This document shows, one piece after another, positions 17,026-31,160 of a stretch of DNA of 31,160 nucleotides. Below the pieces are notes generated by a model. That model did not search any database. It was not told the DNA's origin and saw nothing but the letters and a program-made list of their open reading frames with translations. Each line of letters starts with the position of its first letter. The first letter of the stretch is position 1. Made by a program: the position numbers and the translations under genes. Location: positions 1 to 31,160 of IMG/VR virus record IMGVR_UViG_3300027754_000303. One strand, written 5' to 3'. The stretch is from a virus.

Positions 17026-17385
17026 ATGTTACAGAACGATTACACAGACCCACAAATAGTGGCTCAAGCGGAAAAAGATTATCCAGAAACTACTGCTGAA
17101 TACAAACGCATTATGGTAGAACAATACGAACTATTCTGCCGCAAACAATCAAACTATGGACCAGGTAACATTTCAGTAGGAACTGAATGTAGAAGTGATG
17201 CCGATGTTAAACTATCTCTTACTGGATTATGGTTTCGTATCAATGATAAAATCAACAGATTAAAACAAATGATTATTATTGGTGCGCAAGATAATGTAGG
17301 TGAATCACTTACAGACACATATCAGGACTTATCAGTCTATGGAATTATTGCCCAAATTGTACAAAACAAAAAATGGGGTAAATAA
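17026..17385 (+). CDS. DUF1599 / nucleotide modification-associated domain 1 (Nmad1) protein
   Basis: 119 residues, nearly the whole length being the domain. Seen: YELFCRKQSNYGPGNISVG, then DVKLSLTGLWFRINDKINRL, then ESLTDTYQDLSVYGIIAQI and KKWGK. This is the DUF1599 (Nmad1) pattern: small all-helical proteins found in phages and often encoded near base-modification enzymes. The biochemical activity is not established to my knowledge. Here it lies about 9 kb from a TS-like/PLP/methyltransferase cluster, which fits a phage with modified bases but does not prove it. Family call fairly firm; role inferred. Confidence 0.8.
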   Translation: MLQNDYTDPQIVAQAEKDYPETTAEYKRIMVEQYELFCRKQSNYGPGNISVGTECRSDADVKLSLTGLWFRINDKINRLKQMIIIGAQDNVGESLTDTYQDLSVYGIIAQIVQNKKWGK

Positions 17386-22300: not shown

Positions 22301-23314
22301 ATGAGCAAATTATTTACAGAAAGGGTAGCATATAAACCATTTGAATACCCTGTTTATTATACGGAGGGTTGGTTATTACAAGCTCAAGCGTTTTGGCTTC
22401 ACACAGAAATACCGATGCAAGGTGATGTTAAGGATTGGAATGAAAACCTATCACCATCCGAAAAACATTTAGTTGGAAATATTCTTTTGGGTTTTGCTCA
22501 AACTGAATGTGCAGTTTCTGATTATTGGACAGGTATGGTTACTAAATGGTTTCCAAAGCATGAGATTAGACAGATGGCAATGTTGTTTGGTTCACAAGAA
22601 ACAATACATTCAGTTGCATATTCTTACTTAAATGAAACATTGGGATTAGATGATTTTGCAGGTTTTATGCACGATGAGGTTATGAAAGAAAGATTTGAAC
22701 TTCTTACTAACACAACTGCCGAATGGACGCCAAAAGATTTAAGAACAAATCATCAAGCTAGAGTTGAAGTGGCTCGTTCACTTGCTATATTTTCTGCATT
22801 CACAGAGGGTGTAGCCCTTTATTCATCATTTGCTGTATTGTATTCTTTCCAAATGAGAAATCTATTGAAAGGAATTGGACAACAAATGAAGTGGAGTGTT
22901 AGAGATGAATCACTACATTCTAAAATGGGATGCCAATTATTCAGACATATGTGTGATGAGTATCCTGAATTGTTAGAAGAAGCTAAAGTTGACGTATATA
23001 AAGCAGCTGAAATGATTAGAGATTTAGAACATAAGTTTATTGATAAAATTTTTGAAATGGGTGATTTGGATAATCTTAAAAAAGATGACCTAAAAGAATT
23101 TATTACAAAGAGAGTTAATGAAAAGTTAGGAGAATTAGGTTACAATCCAATCGTAGGTGGTGATGGTATGTTTGAATATAATGAAAAGAAAGCATCTGAA
23201 TTAGATTGGTTTTATCATTTGACAGGCGGGGTCACTCATACTGATTTCTTTGCAATGAGACCAACCGATTATTCAAAAGCAGGTGAAGGTGAAGATTGGG
23301 GAGATATATTTTAA
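22301..23314 (+). CDS. nrdB: Ribonucleotide reductase class I beta subunit
   Basis: 337 residues from ATG 22301. Di-metal ligands by motif: E69 in QTECAVSDYW, E100 and H103 in QETIHSVAY, E170 in FTEGVALY, E203 and H206 in VRDESLHSKM. Y107, four residues after H103, matches the radical Tyr (Y122 of E. coli). The first ligand, Asp84 in E. coli, is Glu here with the same 31-residue spacing to the next. The C-terminus ends in acidic/aromatic residues (GEGEDWGDIF), the type that docks on the alpha subunit. It makes the radical for dNTP synthesis. It is separated from nrdA by a homing endonuclease gene. Confidence 0.93.
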   Translation: MSKLFTERVAYKPFEYPVYYTEGWLLQAQAFWLHTEIPMQGDVKDWNENLSPSEKHLVGNILLGFAQTECAVSDYWTGMVTKWFPKHEIRQMAMLFGSQETIHSVAYSYLNETLGLDDFAGFMHDEVMKERFELLTNTTAEWTPKDLRTNHQARVEVARSLAIFSAFTEGVALYSSFAVLYSFQMRNLLKGIGQQMKWSVRDESLHSKMGCQLFRHMCDEYPELLEEAKVDVYKAAEMIRDLEHKFIDKIFEMGDLDNLKKDDLKEFITKRVNEKLGELGYNPIVGGDGMFEYNEKKASELDWFYHLTGGVTHTDFFAMRPTDYSKAGEGEDWGDIF

Positions 23315-23316
23315 AA

Positions 23317-23922
23317 ATGCAAATTAAAACGCATCATATTGTTTATTGTACTAGGTGTATTATTACCAAAAAATGGTATATAGGTGTACATAGCACCAAT
23401 AACCTAAATGATGGATATATGGGAAGTGGTAAAATATTAAAACTTTCTATTAAAAAATATGGAATTGAAAACCATATTAGAGAAATATTATTTAATGTTG
23501 ATACAAGGGAAGATGCTTTAAGTTTAGAAGCAACTATGGTTAAAGAAAGTACATTAAGTTTACCAAGATGTATGAATATAAATATAGGTGGTATGGGTGG
23601 AAATTTTGGTGTAGTATCTCCAAATAAAGGTAAAGTTTTTAGCGAAGAGCATAAAGAAAAATTGAGAATTGCTAAACTTGGTATTACACCTTGGAATAAA
23701 AATAAAAAACAACCATACACTGCTGAACAAATAAAAAGAATGGTTAATAATAAAAAAATAAAATCTGGATACAAATGTAAACCAAAATGGCAATATCATT
23801 GTCCTGATGGTGTATTTAATACTATAAAAGAAGCATCTGATTTTTACAAAATTTCACCCCCCGCTTTACGATTTAGGATAAAATCAGCAAATTATTTAGA
23901 TTTTAAAAAAAATAAAATATAA
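23317..23922 (+). CDS. GIY-YIG homing endonuclease inserted between nrdB and nrdA
   Basis: 201 residues from ATG 23317, two nt after the nrdB stop. GIY-YIG nuclease N-terminus: HHIVYCTRCIITKKWYIGVH (residues 6-25), then DGYMGSGKILKLSIKKYG and the acidic SLEATMV (E71, candidate metal ligand). Residues 101-122 contain a NUMOD3-type DNA-binding motif (SPNKGKVFSEEHKEKLRIAK), and the C-terminus has a helix-turn-helix-like repeat (VFNTIKEASDFYKISPPALR) as in IENR1 domains. Free-standing endonucleases of this type spread by cutting related phages lacking the insert; ribonucleotide reductase genes are frequent targets. More A-rich than its neighbours. The upstream start at 23296 would overlap nrdB and is not used. 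Confidence 0.88.
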   Translation: MQIKTHHIVYCTRCIITKKWYIGVHSTNNLNDGYMGSGKILKLSIKKYGIENHIREILFNVDTREDALSLEATMVKESTLSLPRCMNINIGGMGGNFGVVSPNKGKVFSEEHKEKLRIAKLGITPWNKNKKQPYTAEQIKRMVNNKKIKSGYKCKPKWQYHCPDGVFNTIKEASDFYKISPPALRFRIKSANYLDFKKNKI

Positions 23923-26462: not shown

Positions 26463-26723
26463 ATGATTAGTGTAAAGAAATTTTCAGCAACATGGTGTGG
26501 ACCATGCAAAACATTAAAGCCAATTTTTGAAGAGGTTAAGCAAGCCATTAGTGGTGTTCAATTTGAAGAATACGATGTAGATTCACAACACGAAATAGCA
26601 TCAAAATACAATATCCGTTCAGTTCCTACTGTCATTATTGAAAAAGATGGTAAAGAAGTTCAACGATTTGCAGGTGTATCATCTAAAATTGCATACATCA
26701 ACGCTATTAACGAAAGTTTGTAG
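26463..26723 (+). CDS. Thioredoxin
   Basis: 86 residues, a compact thioredoxin. Active site W11-C-G-P-C15-K at the end of the first strand, cis-proline SVPTVII, and final KIAYINAINESL helix. The WCGPC motif is the classical thioredoxin type rather than glutaredoxin. It most likely re-reduces the C-terminal cysteine pair of the phage NrdA, two genes upstream. The ATG at 26463 follows the PhoH stop by 2 nt. Last gene before a hairpin and a host-type promoter, so it ends the precursor operon. Confidence 0.93.
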   Translation: MISVKKFSATWCGPCKTLKPIFEEVKQAISGVQFEEYDVDSQHEIASKYNIRSVPTVIIEKDGKEVQRFAGVSSKIAYINAINESL

Positions 26724-26778: not shown

Positions 26779-27477
26779 ATGACAGTTATAGAAGCAGTAT
26801 CACCGGGTGATGCTTGGGTAAAAGTATCCAAATACATATTGGCAAACGGAATAAAGGTTGGTGACCTTACGGAAGAATTGAATGTAATGACAGAAATTAC
26901 ACAATTCCAAAGTGATGAATGGTTTGACCAACATTTTAGAGATGTAATGGGTGATGATAGAATTGATTTCGCATCATCTGTTACATTTGTAGAACCACAA
27001 CCTAAAAAACCAATCAACGATTTCTTTGCAGCAGAAGAAGGTTTAGAATATACCTTTATCAAAGACCATTGGCACGATTCCTATTGGGGAAGAATGATTG
27101 CTTGGCAAGGAACATTTAATCAGGTTGAAAATGTAATCAAAATCTTAAAAACAGGTAAAGCAGTAAAACGATGTGAGTTAATAGTGTTTGACCCATCACG
27201 TGATGCACGCAACCCATACTCACAACCTTGTATGTTGGGTATTGATATTAAACCTCGTAATGGTAAATTATATTTAACTGCAATGTTGCGTTCAAATAGA
27301 GTATCTAAAAGTGGTTATGCTGATTATTCTGCGTTAGTAAAGTTAGGTAAATTCCTAGCCAAAGAATCTAATTTAGAATTGGAAAAAGTTAGTATATTGG
27401 CTCACTCTTGTCATATTGGTAAGATGAACGATGAAACTAAAAAAACAAATAAGTTATTAGAAATCCTAAATAAATAA
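26779..27477 (+). CDS. Thymidylate synthase superfamily enzyme, possible dCMP hydroxymethylase
   Basis: 232 residues, shorter than bacterial ThyA (264) and nearer archaeal-type TS. The C-terminal half aligns without gaps to E. coli TS by eye: catalytic C151 in SQPCMLGID (C146), R171-S172 in MLRSNR (R166-S167), H212 in SCHIGKMN (H207). D182 stands where TS has N177; Asp here is the hallmark of enzymes acting on dCMP, such as T4 dCMP hydroxymethylase. Two other TS residues differ: D169 becomes R174 and Y209 becomes G214. So the fold and nucleophile are kept while substrate recognition has changed. First gene after a host-type promoter, followed 1 nt later by the asparagine synthetase-like gene. 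Confidence 0.75.
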   Translation: MTVIEAVSPGDAWVKVSKYILANGIKVGDLTEELNVMTEITQFQSDEWFDQHFRDVMGDDRIDFASSVTFVEPQPKKPINDFFAAEEGLEYTFIKDHWHDSYWGRMIAWQGTFNQVENVIKILKTGKAVKRCELIVFDPSRDARNPYSQPCMLGIDIKPRNGKLYLTAMLRSNRVSKSGYADYSALVKLGKFLAKESNLELEKVSILAHSCHIGKMNDETKKTNKLLEILNK

Positions 27478-27478
27478 T

Positions 27479-28984
27479 ATGTGTGGGATTGTAGCAACCA
27501 TTGGTTATACAAAAGAAGATGTGAATGAAATGTTGGAAATCATTTCACACAGAGGTAGAGATAATCGTGGTATTATGGAGTTTCAGTATAATGATAAGAA
27601 CATTATATTAGGACATAATCGTCTATCTATCAACGATACATCACCATTAGGTAATCAACCAATGGAATACGAAGGTGTGCAGTTAGTGGTAAATGGTGAG
27701 ATATGGAACTACCCACAACTACGAAATGAGTATGAGGAAAGAGGTTATACATTTAAATCAAACTCTGACTCTGAAATTATTTTATTCCTATATAAAGAGA
27801 ACGAACTTAAAAGATTAAGTGGTATGTTTTCGTTTGTTATATATGATGAAAACAAACTAATTTTATCACGAGATTGGGTAGGTAAATTACCTTTATATAT
27901 TTTTAATAATGGTAGTTACATAATAGCAAGTGAATTAAAATCAATAATAAATACACACAAAGGTGCTGATATAAAGTTTGTTCCTAAAAACTCTTTGGTA
28001 GAGATTAATTTGGATACAAATAAAATAGATGTCCATAGTAACTATTACTTTAATTTTAGTAATGATATTACAAATTTACCAACACGAGAAGAGGTTGGAC
28101 AAAAAACATATCAGTTATTAAGAGATGCGGTAGATAAAAGGTTATTATCAGATGTCCCAATTGCTACATCATTGAGTGGGGGTATTGATTCTGCAGTTAT
28201 TACTTATTTACTTTCTACAAAAATACCTAACTTAAAAGCATACACAATTGCGTTTGACCAGTCATCACCTGATTTACAAAAAGCAAGAGTATGTGCAAAG
28301 CATTTAGGAGTAGAATTAGTAGAGGTATTTGTTCCGCGAGATGAAGAATTATTAAAGCAAAGATTTATAGATTCAATTAGAGTGATTGAATATCCATCAA
28401 CAGTCCAAATGGAAGTGGGAATCCTACAATCATTTATTGCTGAACAGATGGCAAAGGATGGAATCAAAGTTGCATTTAGTGGAGAAGGTAGTGATGAATC
28501 GTATGGTTCGTATGGTATGATTCGTATGTTTAGTAAGAAGCCTGATTGGAGTGATATTAGAAAAAAACTATTTGAAAAGCAATACTATGGTAATTTGTTA
28601 AGAGGTAATACTATCTTTATGAATTATGGAACAATCGAATTACGTTGCCCATTCTTTGATACTGATTTTTTAGATTTTACAACAAACCTAACAGATGAGT
28701 TTTTATCAAAAGGAAGTCAATGGAAGTTGCCATTAGCAGATGCATTTAGACCATATCTACCAGAAGAAATTATTGAGCAAGAAAAGAGGGCATTTCAAAA
28801 AGGAACTAATTTCAAACAATATATTGAAGAACTTATATTAAATGATTCCAATATAAATTTCCGTAATCGTAAAAATATGTTGCACGTCATTGGTGATAAT
28901 TTTGAAAAAATAAATGGATTCTCACATAAGAAAATGAAAGCAGAATTGACATCAACTAATATGGGGATTTACCAGTGGATTTAA
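27479..28984 (+). CDS. asnB: Glutamine-dependent asparagine synthetase-like amidotransferase
   Basis: 501 residues (E. coli AsnB 554). N-terminal class II glutaminase: C2 exposed after Met removal (MCGIVATIGY), SHRGRDNRG, HNRLS (R48), NGEIWNY (N72, G73) and SDSEI (D97). C-terminal ATP pyrophosphatase: SGGIDS at 232-237 and FSGEGSDESYGSYG. All key residues of both halves are present, so it should hydrolyse glutamine and amidate an adenylated carboxylate. The substrate may be aspartate or, given its neighbours, a carboxylated intermediate of base modification. It overlaps the next gene by 10 nt, so tight co-expression. Confidence 0.9.
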   Translation: MCGIVATIGYTKEDVNEMLEIISHRGRDNRGIMEFQYNDKNIILGHNRLSINDTSPLGNQPMEYEGVQLVVNGEIWNYPQLRNEYEERGYTFKSNSDSEIILFLYKENELKRLSGMFSFVIYDENKLILSRDWVGKLPLYIFNNGSYIIASELKSIINTHKGADIKFVPKNSLVEINLDTNKIDVHSNYYFNFSNDITNLPTREEVGQKTYQLLRDAVDKRLLSDVPIATSLSGGIDSAVITYLLSTKIPNLKAYTIAFDQSSPDLQKARVCAKHLGVELVEVFVPRDEELLKQRFIDSIRVIEYPSTVQMEVGILQSFIAEQMAKDGIKVAFSGEGSDESYGSYGMIRMFSKKPDWSDIRKKLFEKQYYGNLLRGNTIFMNYGTIELRCPFFDTDFLDFTTNLTDEFLSKGSQWKLPLADAFRPYLPEEIIEQEKRAFQKGTNFKQYIEELILNDSNINFRNRKNMLHVIGDNFEKINGFSHKKMKAELTSTNMGIYQWI

Positions 28985-29817
28985 TACAAACACCAATCCA
29001 AATTTACGAACTAAAAGGGCGTAAAGTTCACGTTAAGCGAGATGATTTAATAGGTGATGGGAAAGTATTACCACGTTGGGCAAAGATTGAAGGTATTCGT
29101 AGAATATTACAGAGTGAAACAATTGATAAATCAAAACCATTAGCACATTTATCTGTATATGGTAGTTGGACTGGATGGGTTTTATCTCAATTATGTAAAG
29201 AAGAAGGTATTGAGTTTATATCAGCATACCCAGATACACAAAAGTATCCACCAAATCTTTTAGAAAAAATAAAAGAAAACGGAGCAACCCTATTTCCAAT
29301 GAAACCAAATATGATGGCTTTGTTGAGTAATAAATTATCAGGTATTGCTAAAACAAATGGGTGGCAGTTGTTACCATACGCATTTAATCATCCAATGTAT
29401 GTTGATTATATGGCTAGTAGAATGGATGAGGTATTACAGAACGAAGATTTTGACCATTTAGTTGTTTCGATGGGAGCAGGTGTAACTTGTTCAGGTTTGA
29501 TTAGAAGATTTTTAGAATACAAAGATTGGAAAGATATTCTAAAAAATAAAAGACAAGTGCACGGAATTACAATGTCATCAATTAACTCAACTAGAAATAT
29601 ATTAGAATACAATAAAGCCGGTGATATAAACAACGTCCATATTTACAAATCACCATACGCATTTGATGATATGATGCCAAATTATGAAGTCCCATTTGAT
29701 TGTAATGAATTTTGGGATAAGAAAATGTGGTATTGGTTAGATGAAAATATACAAAAATTAGATGGTAAAATTCTATTTTGGAATATTGGTGGTTCTTACA
29801 TAAAAAGTTTAGAATAA
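28975..29817 (+). CDS. Fold-type-II PLP-dependent enzyme (ACC deaminase / D-cysteine desulfhydrase-like)
   Basis: 280 residues. N-terminal HVKRDDLIGDG matches the IKRDDL opening of this family. Candidate Schiff-base lysine K37 in LPRWAKIEGIRRIL, where relatives have GGNKxRKLE. AHLSVYGSWTGWVLSQL corresponds to the Ser/Asn loop and VVSMGAGVTCSGL (163-175) to the phosphate-binding glycine loop. The Asn before the lysine and GGN of typical members are replaced, and the protein is shorter (about 330 in relatives), so the substrate has probably changed. GTG start at 28975 inside the previous gene; the frame has no ATG there. Likely acts on an amino acid or amino-acid-modified nucleotide; inferred. 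Confidence 0.72.
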   Translation: MDLIQTPIQIYELKGRKVHVKRDDLIGDGKVLPRWAKIEGIRRILQSETIDKSKPLAHLSVYGSWTGWVLSQLCKEEGIEFISAYPDTQKYPPNLLEKIKENGATLFPMKPNMMALLSNKLSGIAKTNGWQLLPYAFNHPMYVDYMASRMDEVLQNEDFDHLVVSMGAGVTCSGLIRRFLEYKDWKDILKNKRQVHGITMSSINSTRNILEYNKAGDINNVHIYKSPYAFDDMMPNYEVPFDCNEFWDKKMWYWLDENIQKLDGKILFWNIGGSYIKSLE

Positions 29818-29822
29818 ATTAT

Positions 29823-29853
29823 TTTGTTTTTAAAAAAAAATGTATTATATTTG
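29823..29853 (+). promoter_or_regulatory. Bacteroidota-type promoter for the methyltransferase-like gene
   Basis: TTTG (29823-29826), 19-nt spacer, TATATTTG (29846-29853). The ATG at 29858 begins 4 nt after the -7 box, suggesting a leaderless transcript, as at 13049. Confidence 0.7.
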
Positions 29854-29857
29854 AATT

Positions 29858-31090
29858 ATGTATTTAGACTATTTTGACAAGTATAAGGGGATGACCCCTT
29901 ACCTCCATATTCCAAAAGAAGAGTGGACATATATTAAAGACACGTTTGATAAAGAAGACGTGAAAGAAACTCTTGGACAAGTTTTAATGGAGTATCCAAT
30001 TCCATATGCCGAACTAACTGAAAAGGATGCACGAAGTGAATATCTAGCAACAAAAGGCATCCGTCATCAAAACCTTATGGTAGAAGGTGAATGGTTTCCA
30101 CGTAAGGCATCCGAATCCCGTTACCCAATAACTTACAACGGAAAGAATTTATACTTCCGTAGATTGAATACTGGCAACGCGGCATCAAATTACTTTCAAC
30201 AGGCAAATCGTTGGAGCGTGGATGGGACGGTCTCGCCAGGCCCGAAAAGAACTTGGGAAACAAAAGAATTTATGCATTCACTTATGGGTGGGTTATATAC
30301 TTTAAAGTTTGAAGAAATAAATAGAAATACATTACGAGTTTGTTTGAGTTTAAGAAAGTATATCTGCTCTCAATTCAAACCTAATGTAGCAAAAGCTCTG
30401 TATGATTTTGTGGGAGCAAAGAATGTACTAGATTTTTCAGCAGGATGGGGAGATAGATTGTGTGGATTTATGGCATCAGAAAACGGAGAACATTATGTAG
30501 GTATTGACCCGCGTAAAGAAAACCACCCAATTTACGAACAACAGGCAGAGTTCTATAAAAAGAATAACGGTTTCTTTGAAACAGAAAAAAGAGCTACATT
30601 CCACGAATCACCTGCTGAAGATTTTGATTTCACACAATATCCAGATTACTTTGATATTGTATTTACATCACCACCATACTTTAATGTGGAGAGATACTCA
30701 TACGATGATACACAAAGTTGGGTAAGATATAAAAACATAGATGCTTGGAATGAGTTGTTTCTACACAAAGTAATTAATAACTTATGGCCATCAATCCGTA
30801 AGGGTGGGTATTTGGCAGTAAATATTGCCGATGTGTACGCATCCTCAAAAGGAGATGGTAAAGGGTATCAGGAGATTACAAACCCTATGAATGATTTTAT
30901 AGGAACAATGCCAGGTGCAGAGTATCAAGGATGTTTAGGCATGGAAATGGCTAAAAGACCGGGCAGTATTGGAGCAGGTGCAATGATTGAAGGTGATGAA
31001 GCTAGATTCACCGAAGAAGAAATCGAAAAAGCAAAAGAAAATATTGGTAAAACATTCTGCGAACCTGTTTGGGTGTGGAGAAAAATGTAA
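29858..31090 (+). CDS. SAM-dependent amino-methyltransferase-like protein with novel N-terminal region
   Basis: 410 residues. The C-terminal half has SAM-binding motif I NVLDFSAGWGDRLCGF (189-204), the acidic VGIDPRK after it, and motif IV FTSPPYFNVERYS (269-281), the SPPY catalytic signature of N4-cytosine/N6-adenine DNA methyltransferases, then GGYLAVNIADVY. The N-terminal ~185 residues (GMTPYLHIPKEEW, IRHQNLMVEGEWFPRKASES, LYFRRLNTGNAASNYFQQAN) are not a target domain I know. A second copy of this gene begins 5 nt after its stop, and its N-terminus matches from the first residues, which supports the ATG at 29858 over the later one at 29891. Could methylate DNA, or a nucleotide or base intermediate. 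Confidence 0.75.
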   Translation: MYLDYFDKYKGMTPYLHIPKEEWTYIKDTFDKEDVKETLGQVLMEYPIPYAELTEKDARSEYLATKGIRHQNLMVEGEWFPRKASESRYPITYNGKNLYFRRLNTGNAASNYFQQANRWSVDGTVSPGPKRTWETKEFMHSLMGGLYTLKFEEINRNTLRVCLSLRKYICSQFKPNVAKALYDFVGAKNVLDFSAGWGDRLCGFMASENGEHYVGIDPRKENHPIYEQQAEFYKKNNGFFETEKRATFHESPAEDFDFTQYPDYFDIVFTSPPYFNVERYSYDDTQSWVRYKNIDAWNELFLHKVINNLWPSIRKGGYLAVNIADVYASSKGDGKGYQEITNPMNDFIGTMPGAEYQGCLGMEMAKRPGSIGAGAMIEGDEARFTEEEIEKAKENIGKTFCEPVWVWRKM

Positions 31091-31094
31091 TCTA

Positions 31095-31160
31095 ATGATA
31101 AAAGAATACTTTAAAAAGTTTTATGGTATGACTCCATACATCAATATTGATAAAGATGAA
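31095..31160 (+). CDS. Start of a tandem paralogue of the methyltransferase-like gene (3' partial)
   Basis: 22 codons are visible before the window ends: MIKEYFKKFYGMTPYINIDK and two more acidic residues. Set against the previous protein's start (MYLDYFDKYKGMTPYLHIPK), the two share M, YF, K, GMTPY, I and K in register. Starts 5 nt after the upstream stop (TAATCTAATG). Whether it also keeps the methyltransferase half cannot be seen here. Confidence 0.75.
   Translation, partial: MIKEYFKKFYGMTPYINIDKDE

Follow-up and report, generated by a model that had tools for sequence, protein, structure and literature searches.

Gene content and order of the cassette

The window analyzed here, that is, the whole stretch of 31,160 bases making up IMG/VR virus record IMGVR_UViG_3300027754_000303, carries at its right end a cassette of adjacent plus-strand genes that, judging from their sequences, probably decorates phage DNA cytosines with an amino-acid-like group. 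The first gene (26779..27477) encodes a thymidylate synthase (TS)-like enzyme of 232 aa (family PF00303, residues Cys151 and Asp182), predicted to act on C5 of deoxycytidine monophosphate (dCMP) as a hydroxymethylase- or hydroxylase-type enzyme. It is followed by ASN (27479..28984; 501 aa), a predicted glutamine-dependent, adenylate (AMP)-forming amide ligase of the AsnB/CmoY type with GATase_7 and Asn_synthase domains; by PALP (28975..29817; 280 aa, GTG start), a predicted fold-type-II pyridoxal phosphate (PLP) enzyme related to gp52 of phage M6; by SPPY-A (29858..31090; 410 aa), which resembles S-adenosylmethionine (SAM)-binding DNA amino-methyltransferases; and by the start of a second paralogue, SPPY-B (31095..31160), represented by an ATG at 31095 and 22 codons before the window ends. 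TS and ASN lie 1 nucleotide (nt) apart, ASN and PALP overlap by 10 nt, and a 40-nt gap separates PALP from SPPY-A.

A previous sequence-only reading of this DNA had claimed five adjacent genes ending in a tandem SPPY pair. Four complete, tightly spaced genes (26779-31090) bear this out, the fifth being limited to its 22-codon start. The tandem pair rests on this fragment, in which 21 of 22 residues are as in the second SPPY paralogues of loci L008, L045, L070 and L072; these loci represent two contigs only (L008/L070 and L045/L072 carry the same names), and the near-identical relative L067 has a different gene at the SPPY-B position.

A search of viral contigs with the TS-like protein identified 48 relatives. 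Gene order was counted in the 44 loci with at least 1.3 kb downstream of TS, after dropping L046, which had no called TS, and three shorter loci. Gene maps were produced with a simple longest-open-reading-frame (ORF) caller, so small or overlapping genes are possibly wrong in them, and polymerase, clamp and clamp loader genes were named by eye. A ligase gene came next after TS in 38 of the 44 loci (ASN in 32, a shorter PP-loop ligase in 6), with a 1-nt gap in 32 and a 4-nt overlap in 6, and PALP directly followed the ligase in all 38, overlapping it by 10 nt in 36 and by 4 nt in 2. The remaining six loci (L005, L006, L044, L045, L047 and L049) still contained a ligase gene. SPPY was present in 33 of 44 loci; among the 11 without it, the downstream sequence is shorter than 4.4 kb in 10 and measures 8 kb in L015. 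Because most contigs derive from related phages these counts do not represent independent events; the association of TS, ligase and PALP exceeds chance. L049, a 220-kb contig with other neighbouring genes and a TS-like protein 40% identical to that of the window, carries SPPY, TS, PALP and PP-loop ligase consecutively. The co-occurrence in other phages that the sequence-only reading had proposed as a check was hence observed in many related contigs and in a distant one. Used as a query, the L049 TS-like protein found only itself, and a scan of bacterial genomes with the TS alignment matched 47 stretches, none of which was confirmed.

Besides structural genes, including those for tail sheath, tail tube and baseplate hub, the window contains T4-like replication genes (gp32-like, UvsX-like, DnaB-type helicase and ribonucleotide reductase). 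In relatives, the cassette sits between the UvsX, helicase and ribonucleotide reductase genes and a polymerase gene recognized by eye; in T4, b-gt and 42 occupy a comparable interval, between uvsX/41 and 43. Immediately upstream in the window a thioredoxin is encoded (26463..26723, plus strand; Thioredoxin E=2e-20), a common neighbour called in 37 of the 48 TS loci as counted by eye, to which no role in the pathway is assigned. In L018 (2938-4110), and also in L017 and L021, a 390-aa protein combining an ABC-type ATPase part and a GNAT part (phrog_11143, function unknown) is encoded directly before the TS-like gene. Elsewhere in the window, a small protein (17026-17385) shows a weak match, below cut-off, to Nucleotide modification associated domain 1 (PF07659, E=1e-4), and a homing-endonuclease-like gene (23296-23922) lies between nrdB and nrdA, being absent at that place in L067.

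The TS-like protein is probably of the cytosine type

PF00303 matched the TS-like protein with E=4e-5 and 23.3 bits, against a cut-off of 24.3. Its relatives, 71 members merged to 36 distinct sequences, were aligned with E. coli ThyA, T4 gp42 and M6 gp58. All 36 share Cys151, the catalytic cysteine, and Asp182, which aligns with ThyA Asn177; this pairing of a catalytic Cys with Asp at the Asn177 position is that of cytosine-type enzymes. The residue at this position is Asp in T4 gp42 and Asn in M6 gp58. Since Asp replaces Asn177, the pyrimidine acted upon is most likely cytosine, an assignment that is well supported by sequence and that sharpens the modified pyrimidine of the sequence-only reading. 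In the part of the MetaGPA study available, TS proteins of contigs with modified cytosine mostly carry Asp177 (PMC8670742). Relatives in isolates were found in Enterococcus phage nattely (24% identity over 91%) and in Gordonia phages (35% over 53%); the nattely and Forza proteins also have Asp at the 177 position, as read by eye, and in nattely a beta-glucosyltransferase gene lies two genes downstream.

A structural model of the TS-like protein (predicted local distance difference test score, pLDDT, 82.9) placed it in a tie between the dCMP hydroxylase of phage HY126 (9iqu; Z=19.4, 198 residues aligned, 3.1 Å) and the cytidine monophosphate hydroxymethylase MilA (5b6e; Z=19.0, 201 aligned, 3.2 Å). 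The group added at C5 is accordingly predicted to be either hydroxymethyl or hydroxyl. A plain thymidylate synthase was considered and is disfavoured because of Asp182 and because a full-length TS is also encoded in several records: it was found in 5 of the 16 records searched, four of which (L021, L022, L036 and L049) belong to the 11 records with a TS-like gene. The L026 record contains a 72-aa TS piece with an internal stop.

ASN probably belongs to a ligase family related to CmoY

ASN matched GATase_7 (E=8e-31) and Asn_synthase (E=2e-43). Of 48 aligned rows, 47 share Arg48, Asn72-Gly73-Glu74 and Asp97 of the glutaminase domain, the PP-loop SGGIDS and Lys436, and the remaining row does not extend to these positions; Cys2 occurs in the rows displayed, yet stands outside the list of invariant columns. 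The stretch TTIRAST, a conserved segment of AsnB near the synthetase site that probably binds aspartate, aligns to VQMEVGI in the window, to AQVEIGW in Streptomyces phage TurkishDelight and to TQVSPAV in L143. The TurkishDelight ligase gene is flanked by genes for a DNA C5-methyltransferase and for a CmoA-like protein (TIGR00740 below cut-off).

The shorter ligase that occupies the place of ASN in 6 of 44 loci, and is also present in L049, is a 308-aa PP-loop protein with no glutaminase domain. It matches the 'putative asparagine synthase' of Synechococcus phage S-B43 (24% identity over 45%, E=2e-4), whose gene lies between methyltransferase and DNA-cytosine methyltransferase genes, as in the CmoA-CmoY-CmoX arrangement (PMC12783734), and which is taken to be CmoY. 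In S-B43, CmoY has been shown to join glycine to the 5-carboxymethylcytosine of DNA; the same work describes a related cluster that has a glutamine-hydrolysing domain and that could not be expressed (PMC12783734). These two CmoY branches have their likely counterparts in the PP-loop ligase and ASN. ASN has the AsnB-like PP-loop synthetase domain of CmoY-type enzymes, and what had been read from the sequence as a glutamine-dependent ATP amidase is now placed in a ligase family related to an enzyme with experimentally shown activity on phage DNA. An AsnB-like gene was also noticed inside the deazaguanine gene cluster of Achromobacter phage Motura.

As ASN keeps the glutaminase and PP-loop residues of AsnB and scores above the NCBIfam asparagine synthase cut-off (TIGR01536, 289 vs 267 bits), the cassette could instead serve auxiliary metabolism and boost infection through nucleotide-pool, asparagine synthetase and amino-acid PLP enzymes, a role in host metabolism that the sequence-only reading had allowed for. 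We regard this as very unlikely. The presumed aspartate-binding stretch is replaced both in the window and in TurkishDelight, whose gene adjoins Cmo-type genes; ASN is swapped in some loci for a ligase without the glutaminase domain; Asp182 is present in the TS-like protein; and PALP has relatives in DNA hypermodification loci. A metabolic role is further disfavoured because the cassette is located among replication genes and because a full-length TS accompanies the TS-like gene in 4 of 11 records.

PALP is related to the PLP enzyme of the M6 cassette

The window protein was matched by the PALP profile with E=7e-6, below cut-off, and by phrog_7093 with E=1e-22. Lys37 is invariant in 41 of 41 rows and is predicted to bind PLP; family profile and conserved lysine are those of fold-type II enzymes. 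A tblastn comparison with M6 gave E=3e-17 with 97% of the protein covered, and relatives were present in 62 phage records. In M6 the relative is flanked by ADDT and a radical SAM gene, HMUDK being nearby, and a PLP enzyme is listed for the M6 cassette in the available part of its description (PMC9476957). The link of PLP enzymes to thymidine hypermodification mentioned by the sequence-only reading has in this way become one of kinship.

Among the best 80 of 98 relatives kept in a PALP profile scan, four main settings were distinguished: that of the window; SPPY-PALP-(D-2-hydroxyacid dehydrogenase)-ASN; SPPY-PALP with glycosyltransferase-like genes, including TAGT, near which PALP relatives were found in other contigs; and that of M6. 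Of the 20 loci of the dehydrogenase-ASN set, 13 have SPPY immediately upstream of PALP and 4 more have a single intervening ORF; of the 29 loci of the glycosyltransferase/TAGT set, the corresponding numbers are 16 and 9. In these two groups the TS-like profile called no TS-like gene, and PF00303 had no match in 24 records of the other PALP groups, an absence that carries little weight because the profile also missed the TS-like genes of the L004 and L022 records. In the M6-type set PALP was called in 9 of 10 loci, and SPPY in none of these 9. Two further arrangements were recorded. In L153 (4131-6810), genes for Asp/Asn beta-hydroxylase-like, D-2-hydroxyacid dehydrogenase-like and PALP proteins are consecutive; in L047 (4966-6309), a radical SAM gene lies between ASN and the TS-like gene, and M6 also has a radical SAM gene beside PALP.

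SPPY proteins and a methyltransferase-PALP fusion

SPPY-A matched N6_N4_Mtase with E=9e-5, below cut-off. The motifs G-W-G and S-P-P-Y are invariant in 16 of 16 SPPY rows, which places a SAM motif and the SPPY motif in a Rossmann methyltransferase fold. The fold of SPPY-A was equally close to Trm11 (Z=14.4) and to O-methyltransferases (14.8). The matches listed by Foldseek and VIA-align comprised O-methyltransferases, RNA methyltransferases such as Trm11 and others. DNA methyltransferases of known structure were absent from the matches listed, an absence from which nothing can be ruled out, and no PDB sequence matched the SPPY alignment at E<=0.1. Viral fold neighbours over most of the SPPY length include predicted pithovirus proteins named N4-cytosine methyltransferases. 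With PADLOC, a survey of anti-phage defence, SPPY matched type II methyltransferase profiles and mad2 (MADS), with E=1e-7 and 2e-7, and there was no match for TS, ASN or PALP.

When proteins under 300 aa and identical ones were left out, 100 SPPY proteins were kept, of which five, all of a clamp-adjacent group and with lengths from 359 aa, have no SPPY pattern. A wider scan considered the best 80 of at least 571 relatives: a ligase, PALP or GNAT gene lies within 6 kb of SPPY in 42 of these loci, and none does in the other 38, several of whose contigs end earlier. Many of the SPPY genes with no such partner lie between genes with the lengths of a sliding clamp and a clamp loader, as judged by eye. 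Thirteen of the 38 partnerless records were searched whole; L245 has PALP and Asn_synthase, and the other 12, which may be fragments, have neither. Bacteroides and Vibrio phages also have SPPY relatives, in records where PALP and ASN had no match, and no PALP or ASN gene is annotated around the SPPY genes of DAC16 and Vibrio 2.058.O. Partners are lacking in 3 of the 38 loci found with the window SPPY, and in all 3 the contig is short or ends close to SPPY. Within that set, L093 (7489-8010) and 19 further loci have a GNAT-like gene between ASN and SPPY, at the place of PALP, and no called TS-like gene.

These distributions bear on whether SPPY takes part at all. TS, ASN and PALP alone may form the pathway, the SPPY proteins being ordinary DNA N4-cytosine or N6-adenine methyltransferases carried along with the replication genes. 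We give this version, which is compatible with a cytosine-modifying pathway of the other three enzymes, a little less than an even chance. The methyltransferase fold agrees with it, as do the many partnerless genes between clamp- and clamp-loader-length genes, the Bacteroides and Vibrio phage relatives in records with no PALP or ASN match, the looser 40-nt spacing and the position of SPPY before TS in some contigs. The adjacency of SPPY and PALP in several groups argues against it, and so does a protein in which a methyltransferase and PALP are joined.

This protein, of 812 aa, is encoded by Erythrobacter phage ZS04 (L207:2326-4764) and consists of a start region, a first amino-methyltransferase part, a PALP domain and the remaining methyltransferase part, which contains a CPPY motif. 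Because its methyltransferase flanks match residues 3-112 (51%) and 117-275 (57%) of one protein of Microcystis phage Mae-JY30, PALP is cleanly inserted in the methyltransferase. The start resembles a Microcystis phage gene annotated ParB/sulfiredoxin (51% identical), and Mae-JY30 (L206:4387-6705) shows the unfused order, a ParB/sulfiredoxin-annotated gene, the methyltransferase and then directly PALP. Erythrobacter phage R6L has a relative, annotated as a DNA modification methylase.

The ZS04 fusion suggests SAM-derived amino-acid transfer. SPPY and PALP would then attach a group derived from SAM, either 3-amino-3-carboxypropyl or the decarboxylated variant, to an exocyclic amine of a DNA base, ASN would amidate the carboxylate, and TS would provide a separate C5 layer. 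We consider this unlikely. In its favour are the PALP domain inside a DNA amino-methyltransferase in ZS04 and the directly following PALP gene in Mae-JY30, together with SPPY directly upstream of PALP in many loci of the two PALP groups without TS. The tailoring genes of related loci (GNAT, D-2-hydroxyacid dehydrogenase, Asp/Asn hydroxylase and amide ligase) fit an amino-acid-bearing base, and precedents are found in MccD with its PLP enzyme MccE and, in the portion of the source available, in PLP-dependent transfer by Mur24 (PMC10491745). Against this, nearly half of the SPPY loci scanned are without partners, 12 of 13 whole records contain neither PALP nor Asn_synthase, and the M6-type loci have PALP with no called SPPY. 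A literature search for aminocarboxypropyl in phage DNA modification returned only a paper on a bacterial adenine methyltransferase, itself available in part. A SAM-derived amino acid on an exocyclic amine is, to our knowledge, not among the described DNA modifications. The more specific scheme, in which an SPPY/CPPY protein and the PLP enzyme would transfer an aminocarboxypropyl-type group that a CmoY-type ligase would amidate, in the window lineage on a C5-modified cytosine, is judged quite unlikely.

Known routes searched for in relatives

The enzymes that install the modifying group in the M6 and Cmo routes were looked for in 16 relatives, whose records may be fragments; the phage of the window itself was covered for 31 kb. 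HMUDK (PF18723) and ADDT (PF18724) were found in 0 of 16, and in both controls, M6 and MW2. CmoA (TIGR00740) and a DNA C5-methyltransferase (PF00145) were likewise found in 0 of 16; control TurkishDelight gave the latter and, below cut-off, the former. The M6 route and the Cmo route were set aside on these grounds, and because CmoA and CmoX were not found ASN is regarded as working like CmoY and not as a member of a Cmo system. For a TET route, PF12851 had no match in 31 records, and since the controls were silent as well this result is uninformative.

Several of the observations weigh against a common cytosine-modifying pathway. None of the four profiles revealed a gene that could install an amino acid in the 16 relatives. 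Besides the asparagine synthase score of ASN, the sequence link between ligase and CmoY is weak (E=2e-4) and runs through the PP-loop variant, not through the ASN of the window. The best NCBIfam match of the TS-like protein is a methanogen thymidylate synthase, at 68 bits against a cut-off of 174.6, and the alignment, inspected by eye, shows no counterparts of ThyA Arg21 and Tyr209, residues that we presume to have roles in ThyA; for this reason the substrate could differ from dCMP. No glycosyltransferase is annotated near the Gordonia phage TS genes. Cassette members also occur apart. L068, whose SPPY is 95% identical to that of the window, has PALP and SPPY with no adjoining TS or ASN, and PF00303 gave no match in its 120-kb record; and ASN occurs with a GNAT gene, and with neither TS nor PALP, in 20 of the 38 loci found with the window SPPY.

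A proposed pathway on cytosine

We propose, with a probability of roughly 0.6, that TS, ASN and PALP act in one DNA-modifying pathway on cytosine. The DNA-base hypermodification cassette put forward by the sequence-only reading gains from the co-occurrence of its genes, from Asp at the 177 position and from the relatives of its enzymes in the CmoY and M6 systems. In the pathway envisaged, the TS-like enzyme would place a one-carbon (hydroxymethyl) group or a hydroxyl on C5 of dCMP before replication, and the modified cytosine would enter DNA, replacing or standing beside C. An amino-acid or carboxylate side chain would then be attached to the base, PALP being the first candidate, with or without the SAM-binding SPPY, and PALP would remodel the amino-acid part, as proposed for its M6 relative. 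ASN would adenylate the carboxylate and form an amide cap with ammonia from glutamine, by homology with the ligation of glycine by CmoY in S-B43, and SPPY may methylate or otherwise alkylate an exocyclic amine. The side chain of the hypermodified cytosine would most likely carry an amino acid or carboxylate in amidated form. Its purpose is likely protection against host nucleases.

Relation to known modification systems

The cassette most likely represents a new combination of known DNA-modifying parts, acting on cytosine. With the CmoA-CmoX-CmoY system of Synechococcus phage S-B43, which yields 5-glycylcarboxymethylcytosine (PMC12783734), it shares an AsnB-like AMP-forming ligase predicted to act on modified cytosine; it differs in having a TS-like enzyme and PALP in the operon, whereas neither CmoA nor a CmoX-like C5-methyltransferase was found in the 16 relatives. 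With M6/YuA-type thymidine hypermodification it has in common that one genome encodes a PALP relative and a TS-family enzyme, and that a radical SAM gene occurs, beside the TS-like gene in L047 and beside PALP in M6. HMUDK and ADDT, however, were not found in the relatives, and the TS-like protein has the Asp of the cytosine type where M6 gp58 has Asn. The M6-type product is 5-(2-aminoethyl)deoxyuridine, and amino-acid groups on thymine are known in phage DNA.

The T4 pair of gp42, a dCMP hydroxymethylase, and beta-glucosyltransferase resembles the cassette in its genome position, in the length of the TS-family protein (246 vs 232 aa) and in Asp at 177, but the neighbour in T4 is the glucosyltransferase and here they are ligase and PLP enzyme genes. 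In the 5-hydroxymethylcytosine carbamoyltransferase loci of MetaGPA, as far as given in the part of the report available (PMC8670742), an Asp177-type TS likewise lies beside a group-adding enzyme in contigs with modified cytosine; that enzyme is a carbamoyltransferase there, as opposed to an amide ligase and PALP here.

Amino-acid groups placed on phage cytosine via carboxymethylation have been known since 2025 (PMC12783734). No description of the TS-ligase-PALP combination was found in the literature searched, whose coverage was partial, so that its undescribed status is not established. The enzyme parts of the cassette have so far been described in separate modification pathways, and here a cytosine-type TS, a CmoY-type ligase and an M6-type PLP enzyme are united in one conserved operon. 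As the relatives searched yielded neither the M6-type nor the Cmo-type installing enzymes, the cassette points to a third modification route. It is a small, testable gene set, and the chemistry can be approached directly through the methyltransferase-PLP enzyme fusion of a cultured phage.

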